From assembly GCA_031288885.1 (NCBI GenBank), contig JAITQP010000236.1:1-16459 (forward strand): DNA of 16,459 nucleotides, given 5' to 3'. Below, piece by piece: positions 1,931 through 16,290 of this stretch (position 1 is its first letter; the number at the start of each line of letters is the position of its first letter). This DNA comes from Prevotellaceae bacterium (GTDB taxonomy: Bacteria; Bacteroidota; Bacteroidia; Bacteroidales; UBA932). The notes under the pieces are model-generated. The model was not told the origin of the DNA. It did not search any database and saw only the letters and a list, made by a program, of their open reading frames with translations. A program made the translations under genes and the position numbers.

Positions 1931-3190
1931 ATGATATTTTTATATAATATTGGGTTGCTGCTGTACTGGACGGGCGCGCACGTGGGAGCTATCTTTCACC
2001 CTAAGGCGCGCAAGCTGGTGCGCGGCCATCGCGGAGCGCTGCGCAGGCTGAAGCAGGCCATGAGCGGTCGCGGGCAGCGCAAGGTGGCGTGGTTTCACTG
2101 CGCCTCGCTTGGCGAGTTTGAGCAGGGGCGACCCGTTATGGAGGCGCTACGCAGGCAGCATCCGGATGTGTTTGTGCTGCTCACTTTCTTTTCGCCCTCG
2201 GGCTACGAGGTGCGCAAAAATTACGCCGCTGCCGACTTCGTGTGCTACCTGCCGCTCGACTTGTGGTGGGTGGCGCGCAGGTTTGTGAAGCTTGCCGCGC
2301 CGCACGTTGCGGTGTTTGTCAAGTATGAGTTTTGGTACCACTACCTCCGGCAGCTGCACCGGCAGGGCGTTAAAACCTACGTGGTGTCGGCAATTTTCCG
2401 CAGGCAGCAGGCATTTTTCAGCCCGCTGTACGGCAAATTTTTTGTGCGGATGCTGAGCCTCTACGAGCAGATTTTTGTGCAGAACAGCGAGTCGCTCGAC
2501 CTGCTGGGCGCTGTGAGCATAGGCAACGCCTCGTGCTCCGGCGACACGCGCTTTGACCGCGTGCTTGAGGTGGCGGCTACCGCCAACGCCCTGCCGCAGC
2601 TGGCGCACTTTGCCGCGCCGAACCAGCTGACGCTGGTGGCCGGCAGCACATGGCCTCCCGACGAGGAGCTGCTCGCCGAGCTGATGCGCAAAACGCCCAA
2701 CCTGAAGCTCATTATAGCGCCGCACGAGGTGAGCGAAAGCCGAACGCTTGGCCTGCTTGCAAAATTCAACCAGCCTGCGCTGCGCTACTCGCAGTGGCAA
2801 AAAAACATGGAGGCTAACCTTGCCGGCTACAACATTTTTGTGGTGGACGCGGTGGGATTTCTGTCGTCGCTGTACCGGTTTGGGGCGATGGCGTACGTTG
2901 GCGGAGGGTTTGGCGTGGGCATTCACAACATACTCGAAGCCGCCGTATTTGGCGTTCCGGTAATTTTTGGCAGCTGCTACCAAAAGTTTCGCGAAGCCAC
3001 CGATTTAGTCCGGCTGGGCGGGGCTTTCTCCGTATCCTCACCGGCGGAGCTGCACAGCGTGGTGAGCACGCTACGCAGCAACAGCCGCCTCCGCGAGCAA
3101 AGCGGCAGCACGTGCCAAAGCTACGTGCAGCAGCACAGGGGCGCAACCGAAATCATCATGGAGCAGCTGAGCCGCGCCATGAGCTCGTAG
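1931..3190 (+). CDS. waaA: 3-deoxy-D-manno-octulosonic acid (Kdo) transferase
   Basis: This 419-residue protein transfers Kdo from CMP-Kdo to the lipid A precursor at the inner face of the cytoplasmic membrane, the first step of LPS core assembly. An N-terminal hydrophobic segment (about 2-21) is the membrane anchor. WFHCASLGEFEQ (54-65) contains the family's SxGE motif with the catalytic base Glu62. The C-terminal GT-B half has the donor-site features VAGSTW, APHE, and YVGGGFGVGIHNILEAAVFGVPVIFG. The frame stays open upstream of 1931, but the ATG at 1931 follows the TATCTTTG promoter and gives a normal family N-terminus (MIFLYNIGLLLYW). It converges with the amidase gene, leaving 14 bases and no visible terminator. 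lptD nearby acts later in the same LPS pathway. Confidence 0.93.
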   Translation: MIFLYNIGLLLYWTGAHVGAIFHPKARKLVRGHRGALRRLKQAMSGRGQRKVAWFHCASLGEFEQGRPVMEALRRQHPDVFVLLTFFSPSGYEVRKNYAAADFVCYLPLDLWWVARRFVKLAAPHVAVFVKYEFWYHYLRQLHRQGVKTYVVSAIFRRQQAFFSPLYGKFFVRMLSLYEQIFVQNSESLDLLGAVSIGNASCSGDTRFDRVLEVAATANALPQLAHFAAPNQLTLVAGSTWPPDEELLAELMRKTPNLKLIIAPHEVSESRTLGLLAKFNQPALRYSQWQKNMEANLAGYNIFVVDAVGFLSSLYRFGAMAYVGGGFGVGIHNILEAAVFGVPVIFGSCYQKFREATDLVRLGGAFSVSSPAELHSVVSTLRSNSRLREQSGSTCQSYVQQHRGATEIIMEQLSRAMSS

Positions 3191-3204
3191 CGAGAGCATC
3201 CCCG

Positions 3205-4404
3205 CTAATCGGCTTTGCCGTTTCGCAGCTTCACAACAAAGGCGTCGGGGAATTTTTTCCTCGTTTCCCTCAGCAGCGGCTTCAGCTCCCTGAGGCTTCC
3301 GGCGCTGCCAATGTAGTAGCGATACGTATCGCTGTGGCGGTAGCAGCTTACGTTCCTCAAGCCCTTAAACTCCGGCGCGTTGGTTTTGAGCCGCTTTGAG
3401 GTGGAGAAAATTTGCACGTGGTAGGTCGCCTGATTTTTGGAGGTGGCTCTGCCGACGGTAGCTCTGCCGGAGGTTACCGCCGGCCTGCTCTTTGCAGGCG
3501 CGGCGCCGCCGCTACCTGCACCCTTGGCAACGCTACTCGCCGGAGGCTGCTGCACGGTAAGCCTGCTTTTTTCCCACTGCGCCTTATACTTGCTCAGGGC
3601 GTGAAGAATGGCCTCGGCAATTTCGGTTTGCCCCCTGTCGGAGGTAATATACCTCTCCTCCTCCGAGTTTGAAATAAATCCGATTTCGACGAGCACGCTG
3701 GGCATGGTTGTTTTCCACAAGACCAGAAATGGCCCCTGCTTTACGCCCCGACTCTTGCGCTTTGCGTGCTTGGCAAACTGCTCCTCGACGTACGCGGCAA
3801 ACGTGAGGCTTTGCTCCATGTTGGTATTCTGCATAAACGAAAACATGATGAACGACTCGGGGGAGCTGGGGTCGTAGCCCTCGTACTTTGTTTCGTAGTC
3901 GTCCTCGTGCAGAATTTCGGCGTTTTCGTACAGCGCCACGTCCATATTTTTGTCGGTTTTGTCCAAGCCCATCACGTAGGTTTCGGTGCCGTAGGGCGTT
4001 TTTTTGGGGTTGCTGTTGGCGTGAATGGAGATGAACAGGTCGGCGCCAACCTTGTTGGCTATCGTGCCGCGGTCTTCGAGCGCAATGATGGTGTCGGTGG
4101 TGCGGGTGTACACGAGCTCCACATCGGGGTGGCGCTTTACGACGAGCACGCCCAGCTTTTTGGAAACTTTGAGCACAATCTCCTTTTCGAGCGAAAATGC
4201 GCCCCGCGCGCCAAGGCTGGGGCCGCCATGCCCCGGGTCTATAACTACCACCATTTCATCTTTGTTCCTGCCGGTCGGCCTACCTTCGGGCTCCGCACGT
4301 GCAGAAGCGGCGGGCAGGAGCATTGCCAAGGTAAAATACAGCAGGCATATGGGTTGATTTATAGCGACAAAAGCAAACTTACGCGCATTTTCGGTGAATA
4401 TCAT
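3205..4404 (-). CDS. Secreted N-acetylmuramoyl-L-alanine amidase with C-terminal SPOR domain
   Basis: A 399-residue zinc amidase of the Amidase_3 (AmiC/CwlM-like) type that cuts the bond between muramic acid and the stem peptide in periplasmic peptidoglycan. Residues about 9-37 form a signal peptide ending ASARA. Motifs are VIDPGHGG (zinc ligand His59), Glu73 in LEKE, SIHAN (His128) and VLVEIGF (catalytic Glu240). The insert at about 145-200 (acidic, rich in Tyr and Met) is common in Bacteroidota members and may cover the active site. A Gly/Ala/Ser/Lys-rich linker (about 280-325) leads to a SPOR domain (327-395), which in other proteins binds denuded septal glycan. This suggests a role in daughter-cell separation. 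It is divergent from lptD, with overlapping promoters. The gene is unlikely to be anything other than this family. Confidence 0.92.
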   Translation of the reverse strand: MIFTENARKFAFVAINQPICLLYFTLAMLLPAASARAEPEGRPTGRNKDEMVVVIDPGHGGPSLGARGAFSLEKEIVLKVSKKLGVLVVKRHPDVELVYTRTTDTIIALEDRGTIANKVGADLFISIHANSNPKKTPYGTETYVMGLDKTDKNMDVALYENAEILHEDDYETKYEGYDPSSPESFIMFSFMQNTNMEQSLTFAAYVEEQFAKHAKRKSRGVKQGPFLVLWKTTMPSVLVEIGFISNSEEERYITSDRGQTEIAEAILHALSKYKAQWEKSRLTVQQPPASSVAKGAGSGGAAPAKSRPAVTSGRATVGRATSKNQATYHVQIFSTSKRLKTNAPEFKGLRNVSCYRHSDTYRYYIGSAGSLRELKPLLRETRKKFPDAFVVKLRNGKAD

Positions 4405-9180: not shown

Positions 9181-10476
9181 TTAAATGCAATGCGCTGCAT
9201 ATAGAGGGACTGATTTTATGCCGTTTGCCAAGCCAAAATTGCGGGCGGAAATGCGGATTGCGTAAGCAGGCTTGTGTTTTTCCACGTAAACACCCAAACT
9301 TTTTGCGCGCACATTGCCGGACGCCTTGACTTCAACGGGAATAATGCCCTCTTCCGTGTCCAGCACAAAATCAACCTCCGCCCTGTTGGCGGAGCTCCAA
9401 AAGTATAGCTTATGCCTGTGCGTATTCAGCGTTTGCGCCACAAAATTTTCGGCCAAAAAACCGTGATAAATCCAATCGTGCGCGTGCATAATATCGCTGA
9501 ATTTGGTTTGCGAAAGCGACGTCAAAAGCCCCGTGTCTGCCAGATAAAGCTTAAAGCTACTGCTTGACCTATAGGCCATCAGCGGCGCTTGCGGCAGCTC
9601 TATTTTGTCCGCCTGCAACGCCATATTTGCCTGAATGAGCCAGCCAATAGCGGTTTGAAATTTTTCGCGGCTACCGCCGTTTTCCACGAGCTTGTACATG
9701 AATTTTGCGTTTTCTTTTGCCAGCTGCGCCGGAATGGAGCGAAAAACATGGTGAATTTTTACGGCGTTGGTTTCGCCCGCATACTTCGACATATCAGCCA
9801 AGTAGCCGGTGAGAATATCGGCTGAGATTTGGCGGTTGAACGCCACCAAATTTCGCTGATTTTCGACAAAATGTAGCACGTTGGCGGGCATTCCGCCGAT
9901 GCAGAGGTAGGTGCGGTAAAGCGCCAGCGCCTTTTCGTGGATAATTGCAGGCAGCGGCTCATTGTCTGCAAAGCAACGGCGAATTGTTTCAGCAAGCATC
10001 GCTTCGCCCAGCGCCCAAAGGAACTCCTCAAAATCCATCGGAAAAAGGTACTCCATCTGCACCTTGCCCACAGGAAAAGACGCTTTCATCCGGTTGATTT
10101 TCACGCCAAGCAAGCTGCCGGCGGCCACAATCCGGTAGTGCTGCGGCGCCTCTGCAAAGTACTTCAGCGAGGCAATCGCCTCCTCGCAATCTTGAATTTC
10201 GTCGAAAAAGAAGACGGTTTTTTCAGCATCAAATCGCTGGTTAAAGAGCAGCTCCATCCGGCCGATGACTTCGGCGGCGTTGAGCGAGGGCGTGAAAAGC
10301 TGCTTGTAGTCGGGCGTTTCGGCAAAGTTGAGGTAAACTTGCCGCTCAAAGTTTTTGCGGCAAAACTCCTGTAGCAGGTATGTTTTACCAATCTGCCTTG
10401 CCCCAACAAGCATCAGCGGCAATGGGCGCGCCTGCTTTAGCCACAAATTCAGGCTGTTTTCAAAAAATCTTTGCAT
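9181..10476 (-). CDS. AAA_14/DUF4143-type ATPase with PD-(D/E)xK-like C-terminus
   Basis: 431 residues. The N-terminal AAA domain has a Walker A GARQIGKT (25-32, Lys31) and a Walker B VFFFDEIQD (Asp92, Glu93), followed by AAGSLLG. The C-terminal DUF4143 part has GFLAENFVAQTL and a nuclease-like core, Glu367/Asp369 and then PVEVK (Glu382, Lys384). This spacing is that of PD-(D/E)xK folds, although family members are not firmly shown to be nucleases. Members are very abundant in Bacteroidota, spread horizontally, and have no settled function; a link to defence or mobile DNA is often suspected. The ATG at 10476 (MQRFFENSL) fits the family start; the frame upstream runs through 32-bp tandem repeats and is not coding. 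It lies between the AIPR gene and the two-component genes and is more AT-rich than nrdD. Confidence 0.9.
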   Translation of the reverse strand: MQRFFENSLNLWLKQARPLPLMLVGARQIGKTYLLQEFCRKNFERQVYLNFAETPDYKQLFTPSLNAAEVIGRMELLFNQRFDAEKTVFFFDEIQDCEEAIASLKYFAEAPQHYRIVAAGSLLGVKINRMKASFPVGKVQMEYLFPMDFEEFLWALGEAMLAETIRRCFADNEPLPAIIHEKALALYRTYLCIGGMPANVLHFVENQRNLVAFNRQISADILTGYLADMSKYAGETNAVKIHHVFRSIPAQLAKENAKFMYKLVENGGSREKFQTAIGWLIQANMALQADKIELPQAPLMAYRSSSSFKLYLADTGLLTSLSQTKFSDIMHAHDWIYHGFLAENFVAQTLNTHRHKLYFWSSANRAEVDFVLDTEEGIIPVEVKASGNVRAKSLGVYVEKHKPAYAIRISARNFGLANGIKSVPLYAAHCI

Positions 10477-10492
10477 AATACTTGATTTTAAT

Positions 10493-10588
10493 GTGCGTAA
10501 AATATCGACTTCTCCATTTTTTACGTGCGTAAAATATCGACTTCCCCGTTTTTTACGTGCGTAAAATATCGATTTCCACGTTTTTTTT
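10493..10588. repeat. Three 32-bp tandem repeats with dyad symmetry at the junctions
   Basis: Copies at 10493-10524, 10525-10556 and 10557-10588 all begin GTGCGTAAAATATCGA and end in a T-run. The later part varies by only a few bases. Each junction forms TTTTACGTGCGTAAAA (10519-10534 and 10551-10566), with perfect 7-bp arms around TG. The junction before the first copy (10487-10502) has a degenerate left arm. The 32-base spacing is close to three helical turns. The array lies directly upstream of the ATPase ATG (10476). Confidence 0.9.
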
Positions 10589-10589
10589 G

Positions 10590-10620
10590 CGAAGATATGA
10601 ATTTTATTTGAGGCGTGAAA
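10590..10620 (-). promoter_or_regulatory. Possible ATPase promoter upstream of the tandem repeats
   Basis: On the minus strand TATCTTCG (10597-10590) is one base off TAnnTTTG, and TTTC (10620-10617), one base off TTTG, lies 19 bases upstream. If used, the transcript would carry all three 32-bp repeats in a leader of about 105 bases. The remaining bases up to the AIPR stop at 10681 show nothing recognisable. Confidence 0.35.
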
Positions 10621-10680
10621 GCGCGGATGGGTTTTTACGCGTCCCTGCACGTTTATAGATTTTAGCGCAAGGGGTATTAT

Positions 10681-12339
10681 TTACAGGCACATTAACAAAT
10701 CACCGCGCCTGAAAGTAGCGGATAGTATTCGCCTGTCAATGGTTTTATAGCTATTTGAGGCGGGGTACAGCTGGGCAAGGGCATCCACTAATTTTTTGTT
10801 TGCCCGCTCAAAAAGGCTGTCTTTATTGGCTTCAAAGCAGGCTTTTGCGCGCGTAAATTCTTGGTGTGTTAACTTGTCCAGCGTAAGACCTAAGTCATTT
10901 AAAAGCAAATCACCCATAATCATTGACATAAAATAGTTGCTGTACGGAATGTGAGGGTAATCGTTTCGCAGTGCAACTTTTTTCCTTTGTGCATCGCAAT
11001 ACCTGTATATCAGCACAGAAATGATGATATGCGCCCCGTTTATGCTGCCAAAAATATCGTGATAAAACGCGCCAAAGAGCTCATTCTTTTTGAATTTTGC
11101 CAGATGCGGCTTTCTCCTCCAAACGGCACATATGGCTTCTGCCGCAACGGAAGAAAGGATGGTGGTATCGCGCGAAGGGGTAGCGTTGTCTTTTTTCCTT
11201 TTATAGGTGTATCCCAAACCTGCGACGGCTATTTCCAGCCTTTTCTGTAGCTCATCATTTGCTCGTAAGTCAACGGGGGTTTGAGTGTTTGTTGCAATGG
11301 TAACATCGCTAATCAAAGCATCCATTCTTTCGCCCGACAGCTCGTATAGCCGCACCAGAACGTAGGTATTTGAGTAATCTACCGTGGGGTTGTCTTTAAC
11401 GGTATGCAAAATTGTTTTGCACAATTGACCGCCGTTGATGATTTGCAAATCATTCACCTTCACAGTCCAGCTATCGGCTTGCAGACCATTATAAAGGAAC
11501 TTGCTACAAATCATGGTAATCCCGTTATTGTAGAAGTAGAAATTGTCTTTCTTGTCGCTTAGCAACGTATCCTTAATGGCGGCGTTTACTCTATTGCCGC
11601 TCATCCCCAAGTACTTCCTGATATTTTGGTCTAACAGGCTATCCCCGTGCTTGTCAAACAAGTTGGCTAATTCGACAACGTTAATTTTTCCAACCAAAAC
11701 GCGCTTAAAGTTAAAATTCTCTTGAACGCTTTTACCTGCTAACTGCAACGTTTCGTTGATACCCTTTTTGGATTGCAAAGCATCAACAATATCTTTGTGG
11801 TTGAAGTATTCAAATTTCACTTGGCTGTCGGGGAAGCCGGAATTTTTTATATGATTGTCCCCCTCTTTACTCCACGTCAGCCCATTATTGGTAAAAACGC
11901 ACTTTATGTTGGGAATAAAACCGTCGGCAATCAGCGAGCGAATATCCTCCACCTTAGGCATTAGGTCATCATTCATTTCAACAGGCTTTCTGGGGTCAAA
12001 AATAGCGCCTACGCTGCCTATAACCCTTTGGATAGCGTTGGCAGGAAAGTTGCTATCTTTACTCAAGTCGAGCGTATATTTACCTTGAAAGATGGTGACG
12101 GAGAAATCATAATCGTTTACGTTGCCAATAAAAATAGCGTCAACGCCGGCATCGTTTCCGCCATCGGTTACCAAATCAAACGCTTCCTCCAGCTCGATAC
12201 CCAAATAAGCGGCAACGGAAAGGCAAACAAACGCCCGCGAAGCCTTTCTGGTGATATCGCTTTTGCTCGGAAACTTATCGGGGTTATCGTTTACTATTTT
12301 TGTTATTCTTTGGTCTATAATGTGCTTATTGATGTCCAT
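10681..12339 (-). CDS. AIPR-family protein (abortive infection phage resistance)
   Basis: 552 residues. The AIPR core is recognised by QNIRKYLG (238-245), FYFYNNGITMI (267-277, containing NNGIT) and IINGGQ (300-305). These match the conserved N-x-x-I-R-x-x-L-G, NNGIT and NGGQ blocks of the family. The N-terminal part has Glu51/Glu52, then GGNDAGVDAIFI (Asp67) and FQGKY (Gln85, Lys87), a spacing like the D...(E/Q)xK core of Mrr-type nucleases; a nuclease role is inference. Members are associated with abortive phage resistance and often sit near restriction systems. It begins 15 bases after nrdG but has its own strong promoter inside the nrdG 3' end. It is clearly more AT-rich than nrdD and nrdG, which suggests acquisition. 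No methylase or other partner is adjacent except possibly the downstream ATPase. Confidence 0.85.
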   Translation of the reverse strand: MDINKHIIDQRITKIVNDNPDKFPSKSDITRKASRAFVCLSVAAYLGIELEEAFDLVTDGGNDAGVDAIFIGNVNDYDFSVTIFQGKYTLDLSKDSNFPANAIQRVIGSVGAIFDPRKPVEMNDDLMPKVEDIRSLIADGFIPNIKCVFTNNGLTWSKEGDNHIKNSGFPDSQVKFEYFNHKDIVDALQSKKGINETLQLAGKSVQENFNFKRVLVGKINVVELANLFDKHGDSLLDQNIRKYLGMSGNRVNAAIKDTLLSDKKDNFYFYNNGITMICSKFLYNGLQADSWTVKVNDLQIINGGQLCKTILHTVKDNPTVDYSNTYVLVRLYELSGERMDALISDVTIATNTQTPVDLRANDELQKRLEIAVAGLGYTYKRKKDNATPSRDTTILSSVAAEAICAVWRRKPHLAKFKKNELFGAFYHDIFGSINGAHIIISVLIYRYCDAQRKKVALRNDYPHIPYSNYFMSMIMGDLLLNDLGLTLDKLTHQEFTRAKACFEANKDSLFERANKKLVDALAQLYPASNSYKTIDRRILSATFRRGDLLMCL

Positions 12340-12354
12340 TGCCCAAGAATTTTA

Positions 12355-12876
12355 TCATTTAGTTACGGCAAAAGTACTACTATTTATTGGATTAACAAAT
12401 TTTTCTTTTTCCTCTTTCCGAAACCTTTCCGTTTCGTCCAGCATCTTTCCGTTTTCGATGCGGTAAAAGCGCTGGTTGGTGGTGGCGCAGTCCAAGCCGC
12501 CCAGCGGCGCGATGTAGGGGCCTAACTTTACAAAGTCAAAGCGCTGCAACGAGCAGCCGTCGGGGAGGGTTTGCCGGCCCGAGTACCACGCAACCTTTAG
12601 GCGATGGCGGTTTGCCCTGCGCAGCGCCGCCGCCAGCCGCTCCACCTCGCGCGGAGCCGCGTCCCCGCCCATGAAGCAAACGCAGGTGATGGCGCTCCCA
12701 TACTCCCTGAGCAGGCGCGCGAGCGCGGCTTCGTCCAGCGGCTCGCCGGCGTCCTCCATCAGCCAAGGGCTGTGGCAGCCCCTGCAGCGGTTGGGGCAGC
12801 CGGAGATGTTGATGGCCAGCGTCACCTCGTTCGGGACTTCCTGAAAAACTACGTCATAGCTGAGAAACTTTAGCAT
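12355..12876 (-). CDS. nrdG: Anaerobic ribonucleotide reductase activating protein (radical SAM)
   Basis: 173 residues. NrdG uses a 4Fe-4S cluster and S-adenosylmethionine to generate the glycyl radical on NrdD. The cluster ligands are Cys27, Cys31 and Cys34 in SGCPNRCRGCHSP (CxxxCxxC). CFMGGD (67-72) matches the family's GGxP/GGD glycine-rich SAM site, and the later VKLGPY and NQRFYRIENG blocks are typical. It overlaps nrdD by 23 bases and is certainly co-transcribed with it. From about residue 150 the protein becomes Lys/Glu-rich and then NPINSSTFAVTK, encoded by AT-rich DNA that also contains the AIPR promoter. The family normally ends near the RFYRIENG block plus a few residues, so the last 20 or so residues look like a foreign or altered tail. 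Confidence 0.95.
   Translation of the reverse strand: MLKFLSYDVVFQEVPNEVTLAINISGCPNRCRGCHSPWLMEDAGEPLDEAALARLLREYGSAITCVCFMGGDAAPREVERLAAALRRANRHRLKVAWYSGRQTLPDGCSLQRFDFVKLGPYIAPLGGLDCATTNQRFYRIENGKMLDETERFRKEEKEKFVNPINSSTFAVTK
12369..12399 (-). promoter_or_regulatory. AIPR promoter inside the nrdG 3' end: TTTG, 19 bases, TACTTTTG
   Basis: TTTG (12399-12396) and TACTTTTG (12376-12369) on the minus strand are separated by exactly 19 bases, a full match to the Bacteroidota sigma-ABfr consensus. Transcription would begin near 12362, about 23 bases before the AIPR ATG (12339). The boxes overlap nrdG codons 160-169. This would let the AIPR gene be expressed independently of the cobalamin-controlled nrd transcript. 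Confidence 0.7.
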
Positions 12877-14944
12877 AGTAGCGCTGTGCAGCCTCCTGCT
12901 GCCGTGGTTGTGAAAAGTTGCTGACGCGCTTCATGTAGCCGATGATGCGGGTCAGGTAGTCCAGCTGCTGGCTTTTGCAGGCGGGGCACTCCCGCAGGTA
13001 GCGCTTGTCGATGTGCCCGCAGTCGTTGCACACCGTGTTGGGGATGTTGAACGTAAAGTAGCTGCACCCCTCCTGCGAGGCTACGCGCAGCAGCTGCCGG
13101 TACTGCGCCTTGCTCAGGTGCTCCTCAAGGTTGAGGTGCAGGGCGGAGCCGCCGGTCAGGTGCTCGGTGTAGCGGCGCCCGTGCAGGCGGAATTTATCTA
13201 CGATGTTGAGCGCGCTGTCCTCCACCACGTAGAAGTAGCTGTTGTAGCAGTCGCGCTTCACCGCGTAGCCGTCGCGCCGGTCCCACTTGGCGTGCTTCAC
13301 GCCGACGTTTTCGGCGGGTATCATTTCGCAGTTGAACATAACGTCCGCCGTGCGGTACTTCTTGTTGTAGCGCTCGATAAGCCCGAGCGTCTGGCGGACA
13401 AAGTTTTCGTACTTGGGGTTATCGCTTATCTCCATGCCCAGAAACTCGGCGGCCTCCACCATGCCGTTCACGCCAACGGTGAGGTACTGGCGGCTGAGGT
13501 TGATGTAGCCCGCGTCGAACAGGGGCAGCATGCCCTTTTTCCACAGGTACTTCAGGTTTTCGTTGTACGCCAGCTGCACCTTGTGCGTCAGCTCCACAAT
13601 TTCCTCCAAGTACACCTGAAACGGCACCCCGCTGTTGACGGCGTGCTGGATGCAGCGGTTGAGGTTGATGGTCAGCACGCTTTTTGAGCCGGTGGAGACG
13701 CCGCCGGCCCCCAGCGTGTAGCTGAAGCCGTTGTCCTGAATTTCGTTGCGGAGGCGGCAGCAGCTGCTCAGCGAGTCGGCGTTGCTGCTCATGTAGGTGA
13801 AGAACGAGTGCCCGTCGGCGTACATTTCGGCGGTAAAGTCGCCGTACTCCTCGTCCTTGGGCTTTCCGCTTGCGGTGAGGAGCGCCATGGTTTCCACGGG
13901 GAAGGTGAGGATGGTGCGGGTTCGCTCGCGGTTAAACCACCGCATGAAGCGCTTTTGCAGCCAGCTGAGCGCGCGCCAGTCGGGCTTGCTGCCGTCGGGG
14001 AAGACGAAGCTCTCAAAGAGGCTCTCAAAGTAGTAGCGGTCGTAGTAGGAGATGTTCCAGAACACCGCCTGAAAGTTCCTCGCGCCCGTGGGCTGGTTGA
14101 TGGAGTACACGATTTGCTCAAAGTGGTCGGTGATGACCTTATCCAGCGTGCGCTGCCGGCTGGACAAGTCGACCACCCTATCGGCGTGCAGGTAGTAGTC
14201 GCGCCCGTACTCCAGCCCGATGAAGTAGCTCATGTACATGAGGAACTCGGGCGTGGCGCAGGCGCCGCTCAGCATGCTGGCGACCATAAACACCATGTTC
14301 ACAAACCCGCCGCAGAACGACTTCAGGTTGGTGGGCGCCTTGGAGTTGCCGCCAATCGACGCGGTGCCGCCAATCAGCCACGGGTACATGGTGATGCTGG
14401 CGCAGTAGCTGGCGAGGCTGGTCTCGTCGTTTTTGTAGAGGAAGTGGTGGTTGAGCAGGTCTACATACTTGTCGGCAACCTCCTTTCCGAACATTTCCTT
14501 TAGCCGGTCGGTGAGCAGCCGGCGGTTGAGGCGGATGAAGCTGGACTTGGGCAGCTCGCCGATGAGCGTTGCCATGTTCTTATTCTCCACGTTGGCGTTG
14601 GCGTCGAACTTGCTGCCCGTTGCGGCGTTGGAGGCGTTGCAGTAGTCTATCAGGAACTTGAGCTTATCGCGCACCTCGCGGTCTTCAAGGTGCCGCTGCC
14701 GGTAGAGCATGTAGGCTTTGGCCACGGCGTAGTACCGCTCCGCCATCAGCGCAACCTCCACCTGATTTTGTATTTCCTCCACCGTGATGTCGCTGGTGAT
14801 GTTCACCCTACACAGAATGTTGCTGATAACCTCCTGCGTGGCAAAGCTGCCCACCGACAGGAACGCCTTTGCAACGGCATTCCTGATTTTTTCAATGGAA
14901 AAAGCCTCCTTTTTCCCGTCTCGCTTGACAATAAACAAATCCAT
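12854..14944 (-). CDS. nrdD: Anaerobic (class III) ribonucleoside-triphosphate reductase
   Basis: 696 residues. Reduces ribonucleotides to deoxyribonucleotides without oxygen or B12, using a glycyl radical. Residues 1-88 form an ATP-cone (VKRDGKKEAFSIEKIRNAV) for allosteric control. The catalytic body has GACATPEF, SSCCRLRNE and GGVSTGSKSV blocks that carry the conserved cysteines and finger loop. The C-terminus has a zinc site with Cys639, Cys642, Cys653 and Cys656 (CNDC...CPAC) and the radical Gly669 in RIIGYMKRVSNF. The length is in the usual range for Bacteroidota. The ATG at 14944 gives the expected MDLFIVKRDGK start. A cobalamin riboswitch in the leader is expected to repress it when B12 is available. 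It overlaps nrdG downstream. Confidence 0.97.
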   Translation of the reverse strand: MDLFIVKRDGKKEAFSIEKIRNAVAKAFLSVGSFATQEVISNILCRVNITSDITVEEIQNQVEVALMAERYYAVAKAYMLYRQRHLEDREVRDKLKFLIDYCNASNAATGSKFDANANVENKNMATLIGELPKSSFIRLNRRLLTDRLKEMFGKEVADKYVDLLNHHFLYKNDETSLASYCASITMYPWLIGGTASIGGNSKAPTNLKSFCGGFVNMVFMVASMLSGACATPEFLMYMSYFIGLEYGRDYYLHADRVVDLSSRQRTLDKVITDHFEQIVYSINQPTGARNFQAVFWNISYYDRYYFESLFESFVFPDGSKPDWRALSWLQKRFMRWFNRERTRTILTFPVETMALLTASGKPKDEEYGDFTAEMYADGHSFFTYMSSNADSLSSCCRLRNEIQDNGFSYTLGAGGVSTGSKSVLTINLNRCIQHAVNSGVPFQVYLEEIVELTHKVQLAYNENLKYLWKKGMLPLFDAGYINLSRQYLTVGVNGMVEAAEFLGMEISDNPKYENFVRQTLGLIERYNKKYRTADVMFNCEMIPAENVGVKHAKWDRRDGYAVKRDCYNSYFYVVEDSALNIVDKFRLHGRRYTEHLTGGSALHLNLEEHLSKAQYRQLLRVASQEGCSYFTFNIPNTVCNDCGHIDKRYLRECPACKSQQLDYLTRIIGYMKRVSNFSQPRQQEAAQRYYAKVSQL

Positions 14945-15104
14945 AATTTTTTAACAGTTAACTAATATAAGCACGGACTTGTTAAGGGAGAGAATAAAGG
15001 GTAAGAGAAAGCGGTTGTACTCCAAATGCTGTGTGAGGGGAATAACATGTAACCATCTCTGTGTCGCCTTTCACCCGAAAGCCCGCAGTATGCAGTGTGC
15101 AGCA

Positions 15105-15262
15105 TTCGGCAGGTCTTCTGGCTTGCTTCGGGTTGCGCGCCTTCCCGTCAAAAGTTGACAGTGGCTTTAGGATGCGCACCTTTTTTGCGAAACTTACAGC
15201 TACGGGGATAGCTCCTGACTTTCACAGGATTCCCTTTTAATCCAAAAAGCTTGGAACCGTAT
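15105..15262 (-). ncRNA. Cobalamin (B12) riboswitch in the nrdD leader
   Basis: Read on the minus strand, it has the conserved blocks in order: AAAGGGAATCCTGTGAAA, TCAGGAGCTATCCCC, GTAGCTGTAA, GGTGCGCATCC, AAAGCCACTG, then GGGAAGGCGCG and the B12 box AAGCCAGAAGACCTGCC. These match the adenosylcobalamin riboswitch core, including the GCTGTAA block and the near-invariant GCCAG-AGACC box. The aptamer ends about 160 bases before the nrdD ATG. I did not identify a clear intrinsic terminator in that leader, so the mode of control (transcription or translation) is open. The ligand class (AdoCbl versus aquocobalamin) is not settled by the sequence alone. Confidence 0.93.
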
Positions 15263-15269
15263 GTGGACG

Positions 15270-15277
15270 CAAAGATA
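15270..15277 (-). promoter_or_regulatory. Putative nrdD promoter, -7 box TATCTTTG
   Basis: TATCTTTG on the minus strand matches TAnnTTTG and lies just upstream of the riboswitch 5' end, as expected for the leader transcript. The region 19-21 bases further upstream is a G-run (minus strand) and lacks a TTG box, which suggests a weak or activator-dependent promoter. Confidence 0.6.
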
Positions 15278-15370
15278 GCTCATTTTTCCTTGCCCCCCCG
15301 CCCCCGCCGTCCAAAAATTACCACCAGCCTGTGTTCATTTCTATAATTCGACAAAGATTAATGGTTAAAT

Positions 15371-15405
15371 GATTAATGATTAATGATTAATGGCGCGAGG
15401 CGTGC
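15371..15405. repeat. GATTAAT heptamer array followed by GCGCGAGGCGTGC
   Basis: GATTAAT occurs three times in tandem (15371-15391) after two degenerate copies from about 15357. The array runs directly into GCGCGAGGCGTGC (15393-15405). The same combination, heptamer array then RCGCGARGCGTGC, recurs in the same orientation at 15795-15828. Confidence 0.8.
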
Positions 15406-15611: not shown

Positions 15612-15763
15612 ATTCCCCGTAGGGGAATAATATCAATAGAAACGGGTAATCCACCCAACCCTCATTCCCCGTAGGGGATTAATCGCCCCCATTAATCCCC
15701 TACGGGGAATGGGGAGCGCGTGGTGGCGTACGGTTTCTATTGATATTATTGCCCTACGGGCAA
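15612..15763. repeat. Nested palindromic element 1
   Basis: Outer left palindrome ATTCCCC-GTA-GGGGAAT (15612-15628). The left arm AATAATATCAATAGAAAC (15626-15643) is exactly complementary to 15733-15750. C-rich spacer GGGTAATCCACCCAACCCT. Central inverted repeat with 21-bp perfect arms (15663-15683 and 15691-15711, 7-base loop), each arm itself containing ATTCCCCGTAGGGGAT. The outer right palindrome is TTGCCC-TAC-GGGCAA (15749-15763). CCACC (15651) can also pair with GGTGG (15722). No protein-coding content. Confidence 0.85.
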
Positions 15764-15794
15764 TCGTCCCGCACATACACCACCACGGCGCGTT

Positions 15795-15828
15795 GTTAAT
15801 GGTTAATGATTAATGACGCGAAGCGTGC
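15795..15828. repeat. Second heptamer array plus ACGCGAAGCGTGC
   Basis: GTTAATG, GTTAATG, ATTAATG (15795-15815) run into ACGCGAAGCGTGC (15816-15828). This repeats the layout at 15371-15405 and lies between nested elements 1 and 2. Confidence 0.75.
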
Positions 15829-15838
15829 GTGCGCAGGG

Positions 15839-15981
15839 GCATCCCATCGGGATGCATCGCTCGGTAGAAACGTCGCCCACCCCCACCTCTCCTGCATCCC
15901 GTAGGGATGCATCCCTACGGGATGCAAAAAGCACGTGAATATCCATGCTTTTCTACCGAGCGTTCCATTCCTACGGAATGG
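15839..15981. repeat. Nested palindromic element 2
   Basis: Outer left palindrome GCATCCC-ATC-GGGATGC (15839-15855). The left arm CGCTCGGTAGAAA (15858-15870) is exactly complementary to TTTCTACCGAGCG (15950-15962). C-rich spacer with CCCACCCCCACCTCTCC. The centre (15893-15926) is a perfect 34-bp palindrome with 17-bp arms and no loop, built from TGCATCCCGTAGGGATG. The right spacer contains GCACGTGAATATCCATGCT. The outer right palindrome is CCATTCC-TAC-GGAATGG (15965-15981). Confidence 0.85.
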
Positions 15982-16009
15982 CAAATCCGCGGCACGCGTC
16001 GCGCGACCT

Positions 16010-16200
16010 CGACCAACCTCATTTTCAACCTCATTTTCTCTAACAAAACAACCCCAGTAGCCCAAGGGCGCCCCCACCCTCTCCCCAACCTCATTAAACC
16101 TCATTAATGAGGTAATGAGGTTAGGGATATTTATATTCATGCTCATAGGCTACTGAGGTTGGTTTGTTAGAGAAAATTAGGTTGGAAATGAGGTTGGTCG
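16010..16200. repeat. Nested palindromic element 3 (53-bp arms)
   Basis: 16010-16062 pairs with 16148-16200 over 53 bp with 4 mismatches. AACCTCATT occurs twice in the left arm, and its complement appears in the right arm as AATGAGGTT plus a one-base variant (AATTAGGTT). The centre repeats the same word as AACCTCATT, AA, ACCTCATT and complements (16087-16122). The left spacer has GCGCCCCCACCCTCTCCCC and the right spacer has ATATTCATGCT, both similar to element 2. The innermost arm, CAGTAGCC with GGCTACTG, corresponds to CTCGGTAG/CTACCGAG of element 2. Confidence 0.85.
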
Positions 16201-16205
16201 GGACG

Positions 16206-16234
16206 GCGCGAGGCGTGTGATACGCGATGCGTGC
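16206..16234. repeat. Two further RCGCGARGCGTGC motifs
   Basis: GCGCGAGGCGTGT (16206-16218) and ACGCGATGCGTGC (16222-16234) are tandem variants of the motif seen at 15393, 15475 and 15816. They lie immediately after nested element 3. Confidence 0.65.
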
Positions 16235-16260: not shown

Positions 16261-16290
16261 GTAGGGGCGGGTTTTCAAACCCGCCCCTAC
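16261..16290. repeat. Perfect 30-bp palindrome GTAGGGGCGGGTTT..AAACCC
   Basis: GTAGGGGCGGGTTT (16261-16274) is exactly complementary to 16277-16290, with TC between. Palindromes of this GGGGCGGGTTT type are, to my knowledge, common dispersed repeats in many environmental bacterial genomes. It lies 53 bases downstream of the T9SS cargo stop on the minus strand. A U-run does not follow, so a terminator role is weak. Confidence 0.75.

Follow-up and report, generated by a model that had tools for sequence, protein, structure and literature searches.

Three nested palindromes in a Prevotellaceae contig

The DNA analyzed here (the window) is a stretch of 16,459 nucleotides from a Prevotellaceae bacterium (assembly GCA_031288885.1, contig JAITQP010000236.1), whose genome (G000) comprises 2.49 Mb in 320 contigs and is 79.48% complete. 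Positions 15612-16217 hold three adjoining nested palindromes, spanning 15612-15764, 15839-15981, and 15993-16217 (elements 1, 2, and 3), which we examined together with their copies elsewhere and with the Y1 (HUH) transposase genes found inside the same frames in other genomes. As an earlier note on this DNA had described, each palindrome runs in the order word, arm, C-rich spacer, central palindrome, spacer, complementary arm, and word, and the arms quoted there are present and complementary. Measured against 200 dinucleotide shuffles per element, the single-strand DNA folds reach −58.2 kcal/mol for element 1 (shuffle mean −22.3, z −12.7), −40.9 kcal/mol for element 2 (shuffle mean −15.7, z −9.8), and −83.4 kcal/mol for element 3 (shuffle mean −24.8, z −17.2), with 0/200 shuffles as stable in each case. 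The parts are listed below, with the strand where one applies.

15612..15764: element 1 (type 1), 153 bp including both outer hairpins; its own genome has 17 exact arm pairs, and 0 for the backward control pattern
15612..15628: type 1 outer hairpin P1, ATTCCCC-GTA-GGGGAAT
15629..15643, + strand: type 1 left arm AATATCAATAGAAAC; a similar arm lies upstream of a Y1 transposase at locus L249
15664..15683: type 1 inner hairpin P2, with the same word around a GTA loop
15691..15710: type 1 inner hairpin P3, the word in reverse complement around a TAC loop
15733..15747, − strand: type 1 right arm GTTTCTATTGATATT
15748..15764: type 1 outer hairpin P4, ATTGCCC-TAC-GGGCAAT, one pair off the P1 word
15839..15981: element 2 (type 2); 11 copies by arms in the own-genome stretches
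15839..15855: type 2 outer hairpin P1, GCATCCC-ATC-GGGATGC
15857..15870, + strand: type 2 left arm TCGCTCGGTAGAAA
15893..15926: type 2 inner hairpins P2 (GCATCCC-GTA-GGGATGC) and P3 (reverse complement), abutting
15950..15962, − strand: type 2 right arm TTTCTACCGAGCG
15965..15981: type 2 outer hairpin P4, CCATTCC-TAC-GGAATGG
15993..16217: element 3 (type 3), the entire palindrome, with 77-nt arms that are 84% complementary; 7 exact arm pairs in its own genome, 0 for the backward control pattern
16014..16037, + strand: type 3 left outer words, CAACCTCATTTT twice
16052..16061, + strand: type 3 left arm, here CCCCAGTAGC; the commonest form in the family is CCTCAGTAGC
16086..16122: type 3 inner words AACCTCATTAAACCTCATT / AATGAGGTAATGAGGTT; a transposase gene lies between such words at L289 and L290
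16149..16158, − strand: type 3 right arm GCTACTGAGG
16175..16195, − strand: type 3 right outer words (AATTAGGTTGGAAATGAGGTT)

Types 1 and 2 display four short hairpins, of which P1 and P2 form the left half and P3 and P4 the right half; within the left half the hairpins flank the arm (AATATCAATAGAAAC or TCGCTCGGTAGAAA), and within the right half they flank its complement. Across 86 elements of these two types, the P1 loop has the polarity G..A in 54/70 cases and T..C in 0/70 detected, while the P4 loop reads T..C in 67/72 and G..A in 0/72 detected. This polarity identifies an element of type 1 or 2 as two similar halves of two hairpins each, the second inverted relative to the first. Type 3 has AACCTCATT words instead of small hairpins, and its arm is CCTCAGTAGC. 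Elements 1 and 2 are related to each other by an xTAGAAA arm and by hairpins of the form CC-GT(N)A-GG; the word of element 3 is of another kind. GTAG is present in the type 2 and type 3 arms and absent from that of type 1 (AATAGAAA), and where present it does not stand at the foot of a small hairpin. The C-rich spacer and the motif ATATYCATGCT, common to the window elements, are by eye absent from most type-2 relatives elsewhere.

The earlier note held that each element uses one word at about four positions. A repeated word is present in all three, but it is not identical throughout: the fourth word of element 1 is ATTGCCCTACGGGCAAT, the first word of element 2 has the loop ATC and its fourth is CCATTCCTACGGAATGG, and element 3, which extends farther than first described (15993-16217), contains AACCTCATT more than four times, in direct runs.

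The elements belong to three dispersed families

The 621-base query region has 117 matches in its own genome, an over-count because palindromes match on both strands and some pieces are short. Counted by their arms, types 1, 2, and 3 have 13, 11, and 14 copies in the own-genome stretches examined, and 34/38 of these overlap no mechanically called open frame of at least 120 amino acids. Both neighboring genes are visible for 13 copies, the other 25/38 lying at stretch edges; six of the 13 sit between convergent genes, seven between tandem genes, and none between divergent ones. Alignments show that the copies are alike from P1 to P4, with flanks that diverge near the outer hairpins, although some share repeats farther out. 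The best type 1 and type 2 copies are 90-97% identical within this genome, while type 3 copies are mostly 75-85% identical. Words are fixed per family there, with a few compensated changes and no exchange from copy to copy. We therefore reject the proposal of a single shared scaffold with exchangeable words: the elements represent three separate multicopy families, and the type 3 enzymes described below fall in another clade.

Among 40 near genomes, 13 contain matches, namely the window's own, 10/10 others of the genus, and 2/29 outside it. The type-2 arm alone finds many named Bacteroidales metagenome-assembled genomes (MAGs) among the matches listed, some of them with the complementary arm nearby; the 14-base pattern also matched unrelated taxa among these matches, as chance allows. 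A gapped type-2 pattern matched in 3/11 genomes and not in the window's own (0), where it is uninformative since its gap range of 40-70 excludes the window's own type-2 spacing.

Several arrangements were observed alongside these copies. Within contig C133 of the window's genome (L011, ~316-946), three type-1 elements stand in tandem with a period of ~220 bp and a GGGCGGGTTT palindrome between them. The palindrome that alternates with these copies resembles a perfect 14-bp inverted repeat at 16261-16290 of the window (GTAGGGGCGGGTTT/AAACCCGCCCCTAC), which itself recalls a double-foot GTAG repetitive extragenic palindrome (REP). By eye, a type-2 subfamily with an extra outer inverted repeat, GGGTGCATTTCAAATTGTCGCTTT, occurs at L099, L117, L136, and L145. 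Type-2 elements at L094 and L121 lie in a MAG labeled Planctomycetaceae (Kf353_bin151), which may reflect mis-binning or transfer.

The same frames enclose Y1 transposase genes

At locus L068, from a Bacteroidales MAG, type-2 halves stand 584 bp apart around a single gene for a 154-residue Y1 transposase (PF01797, 3.3e-29; 101.9 bits against a cut-off of 23, which matches within the genus also exceed). Two loci in the genus, L183 and L186, have type-2 halves 601 and 606 bp apart around a Y1 transposase gene. In such frames the gene lies between P2 and P3; for comparison, 61/66 type-2 arm pairs are spaced 60-119 bp, counted over the loci examined to that point, some of which overlap. The type 3 frame surrounds its own, different enzyme at L199 (right end incomplete), L289, and L290, with a shrunken version at L193 and a broken one at L298. 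In another family of the order, L249 carries the type-1 arm and type-1-like words (AGCCCGTAGGGCT, TGTCCGTAGGACA) upstream of a Y1 enzyme, and the right half of its frame is degenerate. The same plan with other words (e.g., GTCCC) recurs across the order and phylum, and the type-1-like enzyme is matched in 169/395 genomes of a phylum sample.

Over 95-107 nt, the left half of the enzyme-bearing copy at L183 is 92-95% identical to seven short copies (L048, L060, L062, L145, L050, L136, and L099), other matches in the same search ranging more widely, and in those seven the match ends just past P2. The enzyme copies of L183 and L186 occupy the same site in two species, so the type-2 enzyme-bearing copy looks stationary. 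For type 3, L289 and L290 share ~75 nt of left flank and their right flanks part after a dozen bases. The six genus genomes that have Y1_Tnp contain 1-5 matches each.

One locus among those examined carries different cargo. In L093 (Candidatus Symbiothrix, 2800-4180), type-2 halves surround a 407-residue AbiH frame instead of tnpA (PF14253, 5.9e-24; PADLOC AbiH, 2.5e-7 over a short stretch). At L101 (4923-5919), two type-2 left halves in direct orientation flank a 138-residue frame that by eye resembles a PIN-domain toxin and is preceded by a small frame. Further Y1 groups of the genus lie inside other palindromes (L184, L185, L187-L192, L194, and L197), with words including GTCCCGCAGGGAC with CCGTATGCTTTAGCATACGG and CCTGCCTGAAAGGCAGG with CCGCAGGTCTGCGACCTGCGG. 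Plasmids yielded 93 matching records, the best being a Bernardetia tnpA at 46% identity, whose upstream flank by eye repeats a word of its own. Among phages only two records matched, both Helicobacter phages at 26% identity, and one scan of IMG/VR found no close relatives.

Enzyme motifs and phylogeny

We scanned 122 loci, of which 95 have a Y1 frame of at least 120 amino acids; 83 of these remain below 85% identity. The signature Y---Q--HH is present in 79/83 of these non-redundant enzymes (51/55 in an earlier set), which measure ~150 residues. An alignment of 13 enzymes (11 of type 3, plus L183 and L249) shows H55, H57, W95, Q96, Y115, Q119, H122, and H123 invariant in 13/13. The enzymes thus combine a PF01797 match with the HuH motif, here an invariant HVH, and the catalytic tyrosine of a Y1 (HUH) system. 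Many type-3 enzymes read EHVH rather than DH[IV]H.

In the tree, 11 type-1/2 enzymes form one supported clade and the type-3 enzymes fall in another; the label "GGTAG+CCGTAGG" proved too loose, as 3/14 rows bearing it lie outside the main clade. Three of four enzymes pass the cut-off of NCBIfam NF033573 (IS200/IS605), the type-3 enzyme of L199 scoring 50.9 against 55. None reaches the cut-off of 80 for NF047646 (REP_Tyr_transpos), two scoring 29.7 and 35.6 bits and the other two giving no match. Among solved structures, the type-2 enzyme matches 2xm3/2xqc, 2xma, 2xo6, and 2fyx, all deposited as transposases; we take 2xm3 to be ISDra2. The type-3 enzyme has no match among solved structures at 1e-3.

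Complementary flanks and hairpins around Y1 genes

To 81 Y1 genes with at least 150 nt on each side we applied a flank test with 100 shuffles in two-letter blocks, assigning each gene to the closest of four query enzymes. In 48/81 genes, the complementarity between the upstream and the downstream flank exceeds that of every shuffle (28/43 nearest type 2, 4/8 type 1, 10/22 type 3, and 6/8 in the fourth group). In the type-2 group, a hairpin followed by a TAG arm is found on both sides of 17/43 genes (0.1% of shuffles) and on either side of 25/43 (2.8% of shuffles). The type-3 arm stands on both sides of 8/22 type-3-like genes (upstream in 15, downstream in 9), compared to 0/59 others. In an earlier test of 49 genes, own flanks had a median score of 50 and mixed pairs, which included genes with common words, one of 19; own flanks exceeded the 99th percentile of mixed pairs in 20/49 and were best of their row in 22/49.

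Words change together between lineages

The earlier note supposed that the words are replaced in concert. For type 3 we compared the letter x in CCTxAGTAG (arm) and CCTxATT (words) at 26 enzyme loci, tolerating the other of the two letters in up to 20% of words. Thirteen of the 26 loci have a T arm with T words, 3/26 a C arm with C words (L193 among them with one T against seven C), and 9/26 have no such arm; L238 has a T arm with two T words and one C word. L289 and L290 show the C form by eye. Between the paired arms, the letters are T-A in seven loci and C-G in one. Replacement of T by C at nearly all positions together was probably a single event, since the C loci are closely related.

Among 19 type-1/2-like loci possessing both arms, the likeness of P1 to P4 words within a locus exceeds that of shuffled words (0.811 versus 0.697; 2/5000). 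The same holds for P2 and P3 (0.860 versus 0.746, n = 10; 10/5000), for the arms (0.663 versus 0.433; 0/5000), and for P1 with P2 across 25 halves (19/5000). Kinship was left in throughout these tests, among the loci and among the close type-2 copies considered below. On these sequence comparisons we regard the words as belonging to element lineages, and concerted replacement stands at that level.

Neighboring features of the window

On the − strand, 15091-15276 encodes a cobalamin riboswitch (RF00174, 113.7 bits) upstream of two frames, 12854-14944, which we read as NrdD, the anaerobic ribonucleotide reductase, and 12355-12876, in which Fer4_12 is over its cut-off and Radical_SAM just below. 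Full-length nrdD is found in 3/10 other genomes of the genus (L274, L275, and L276). Upstream of it, L276 has a type 3 element, L275 none, and L274 other words; the neighboring genes differ and synteny is not kept. By eye, a stretch like the end of the GGGTGCATTTCAAATTGTCGCTTT repeat stands alone upstream of nrdD in L275. Farther along the − strand, 10681-12339 encodes an AIPR family protein (PF10592, 1.7e-42) adjoining an AAA_14/DUF4143 protein (9181-10650). At 15368-15393 and 15796-15816, TTAATGATTAATGATTAATG runs precede GCGCGAGGCGTGC-like repeats, and this 33-nt unit has further occurrences in the genome.

A probable transposition system with non-autonomous copies

The window palindromes are short and non-coding, with inverted ends and many dispersed copies, as in REPINs and miniature inverted-repeat transposable elements (MITEs). 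We conclude that they are very likely non-autonomous REPIN/MITE-like members of three Bacteroidota Y1 (HUH) transposase systems, relatives of IS200-like elements. What the data establish are the frame and its copies, the link between frame and gene, the polarity of the hairpins, and the motifs of the enzymes. The suggestion of a non-autonomous mobile element is thereby borne out, given the many copies with diverging flanks and the transposase genes that the same frame carries elsewhere.

Each system would comprise one short TnpA (~150 residues, with the subclass-1.2 signature discussed below) and a two-half frame, in which outer hairpin, TAG-bearing arm, spacer, and inner hairpin are followed by the same parts inverted. 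The enzyme gene, if present, lies between the two inner hairpins, and the window copies have lost it or never had it. By analogy with IS200/IS605, TnpA would bind its own hairpin word on single-stranded DNA, for example at a replication fork, and would cut and rejoin beside the TAG arm; with the halves in opposite orientation, both strands would present a similar substrate. Frames without a gene would be copied or moved in trans, and different words would keep neighboring systems apart. Since a single enzyme has to read every position, a change of word would affect them all.

Several results weigh against this reading. We saw no filled/empty site or target duplication; the boundaries are set by the copy alignments. 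There are 0 Y1_Tnp matches in the window's own genome, at the completeness and fragmentation given above, and hence no candidate source of the enzyme there; 5/11 genus genomes, this one included, have none, and all type-1-like enzymes found belong to other families of the order. The right half of L183 does not match the short copies, so that simple internal deletion is at most a possible origin for them. The genes sampled are the best search matches rather than a random set. Among them, 33/81 lack significant flank complementarity, 26/43 of the type-2 group do not have the hairpin and TAG arm on both sides, and 0/38 genes of the other groups have them on both sides (0/8, 0/22, and 0/8). By eye, the broken type-3 locus L298 mixes T and C words. 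Finally, among 42 close type-2 copies, the P1/P4 likeness is 0.714 versus 0.771 when shuffled (standard deviation 0.017), as if the outer hairpins avoid pairing with each other. With P1 and P4 less alike than shuffled, we reject a strict within-copy concert of words for type 2; this part of the earlier proposal fails among close copies.

The alternative that survives best is compatible with the reading above: formerly mobile sequences would now be kept as 3′-end hairpins, serving as terminators or mRNA stabilizers, with no active enzyme in the lineage. We consider it unlikely, though worth keeping in view. The lack of a Y1 gene in the window's genome, the absence of divergent placement among the 13 copies with both neighbors visible, and the 75-85% likeness of most type-3 copies, which fits an older spread, all favor it. 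The 90-97% identity of the best type-1 and type-2 copies instead points to recent spread, and about a fifth of the genome is missing.

The earlier note had also raised structured RNA, in which a conserved fold, regulatory or as a small RNA, would present loops and words as recognition sequences. Both strands fold strongly as RNA, some changes are compensated, and the copies are mostly intergenic and never between divergent genes (6 convergent and 7 tandem of 13). Nevertheless, Rfam gives a single match at gathering threshold in the window, to the neighboring cobalamin riboswitch and not to the palindromes; the copies are dispersed in differing contexts, and transposase genes lie inside the same frame. 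This explanation is unsupported and improbable, although the elements might still act as RNA once transcribed.

A canonical REP/RAYT system (TnpAY1 class 2), with GTAG-footed hairpins read by a domesticated TnpAREP, is marginally less credible again. It would account for the inverted doublets, the GTAG of the type 2 and 3 arms, the repeat-specific enzymes, and the enzyme copies at the same site in L183 and L186, as reported for REPtrons in PMC6006769. Yet the best REP_Tyr_transpos score among four enzymes is 35.6 bits against a cut-off of 80, the tyrosine motif is Y---Q--HH and not Y---NP, there are four hairpins, and GTAG lies in the arm rather than at the hairpin foot. Least credible of all are attC-like or invertible recombination sites of a tyrosine or serine recombinase, for which the imperfect palindromes with spacers and the GTTA loops, which we take to recall attC cores, might speak, since the gene inside the frame is Y1_Tnp and not an integrase, although no search aimed at integrases was made.

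Comparison with known systems

The very likely placement among Y1 systems leaves the question of which known kind lies closest. Elements of the IS200/IS605 family (IS608, ISDra2) and their gene-less derivatives share the Y1_Tnp family, the HuH and Y---Q motifs, and terminal hairpins. IS200/IS605 hairpins lie on one strand, and these elements are not known to carry terminal inverted repeats. Cleavage in this group takes place next to a tetranucleotide and is not known to duplicate the target. Here, the ends are instead inverted copies of a two-hairpin half, with loop polarity reversed between P1 and P4. As given in PMC6006769, IS200/IS605 enzymes bind terminal hairpins on single-stranded DNA, and the cut is chosen by base pairing with a hairpin-adjacent guide.

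The same source describes REPIN/BIME repeats with their REPtrons (TnpAREP, RAYT), which resemble our elements in being non-coding inverted hairpin doublets present in many copies between genes; every repeat family there is paired with a Y1 gene of its own, bordered by those repeats, and several families coexist per genome (PMC6006769). A REPtron, too, is a stay-at-home enzyme copy with spreading short copies (PMC6006769). The systems described here differ in their class 1.2 signature, the four hairpins of types 1 and 2, the GTAG in a long arm, and short polar G..A loops. TIRtrons (TIRYT) place a Y1 gene between long terminal inverted repeats, some of them double palindromic and some in repeat families (PMC3733652); 20/26 TIRYTs belong to subclass 2.1 with helix-turn-helix tails (PMC6006769). 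In contrast, the enzymes here have ~150 residues with Y---Q--HH, and the repeat motifs are other than GGGGWSAS (PMC3733652).

By length, DH[IV]H, WQ, Y---Q--HH, occurrence in Bacteroidetes, and few copies per genome, the enzymes resemble TnpAY1 subclass 1.2 (Quentin 2018, PMC6006769), described there as generally without terminal hairpin structures; Table 1 of that paper lists no REP for it. Here, however, complex frames of terminal hairpins are common, and 48/81 genes have complementary flanks. Judged by signature and length, the enzymes would remain members, and the frames count rather against the description of the subclass.

No description of such frames was found in the literature as judged by titles and the openings of abstracts, bioRxiv and most subscription journals being outside that scope. 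The earlier statement that no named family has this layout is thus nearly right: REPIN/REPtron and TIRtron are the nearest kinds, and the four-hairpin frame with this subclass is absent from their descriptions in the parts compared.

Implications

A broader view, which we hold tentatively and at somewhat less than even chances, is that the subclass 1.2 Y1 enzymes of Bacteroidota may constitute many separate word-addressed systems for single-strand DNA transposition. These would share the four-hairpin frame, with a word for each enzyme, words re-specified in concert with the divergence of the enzymes, several systems per genome, and possible AbiH-type cargo (L093).

With the present results, a little-understood HUH subclass, described in 2018 as generally lacking terminal hairpins, gains a likely DNA partner and candidate substrate, simple enough for an in vitro test with one 150-residue protein and one oligonucleotide. 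How HUH hairpin specificity changes would be revealed by the natural enzyme/word pairs (T versus C for type 3; for types 1/2, CATTCC, ATTCCCC, and GTCCC). The single AbiH case suggests that the frames can carry defense genes, and the systems would account for some of the intergenic repeats that these Bacteroidales carry.
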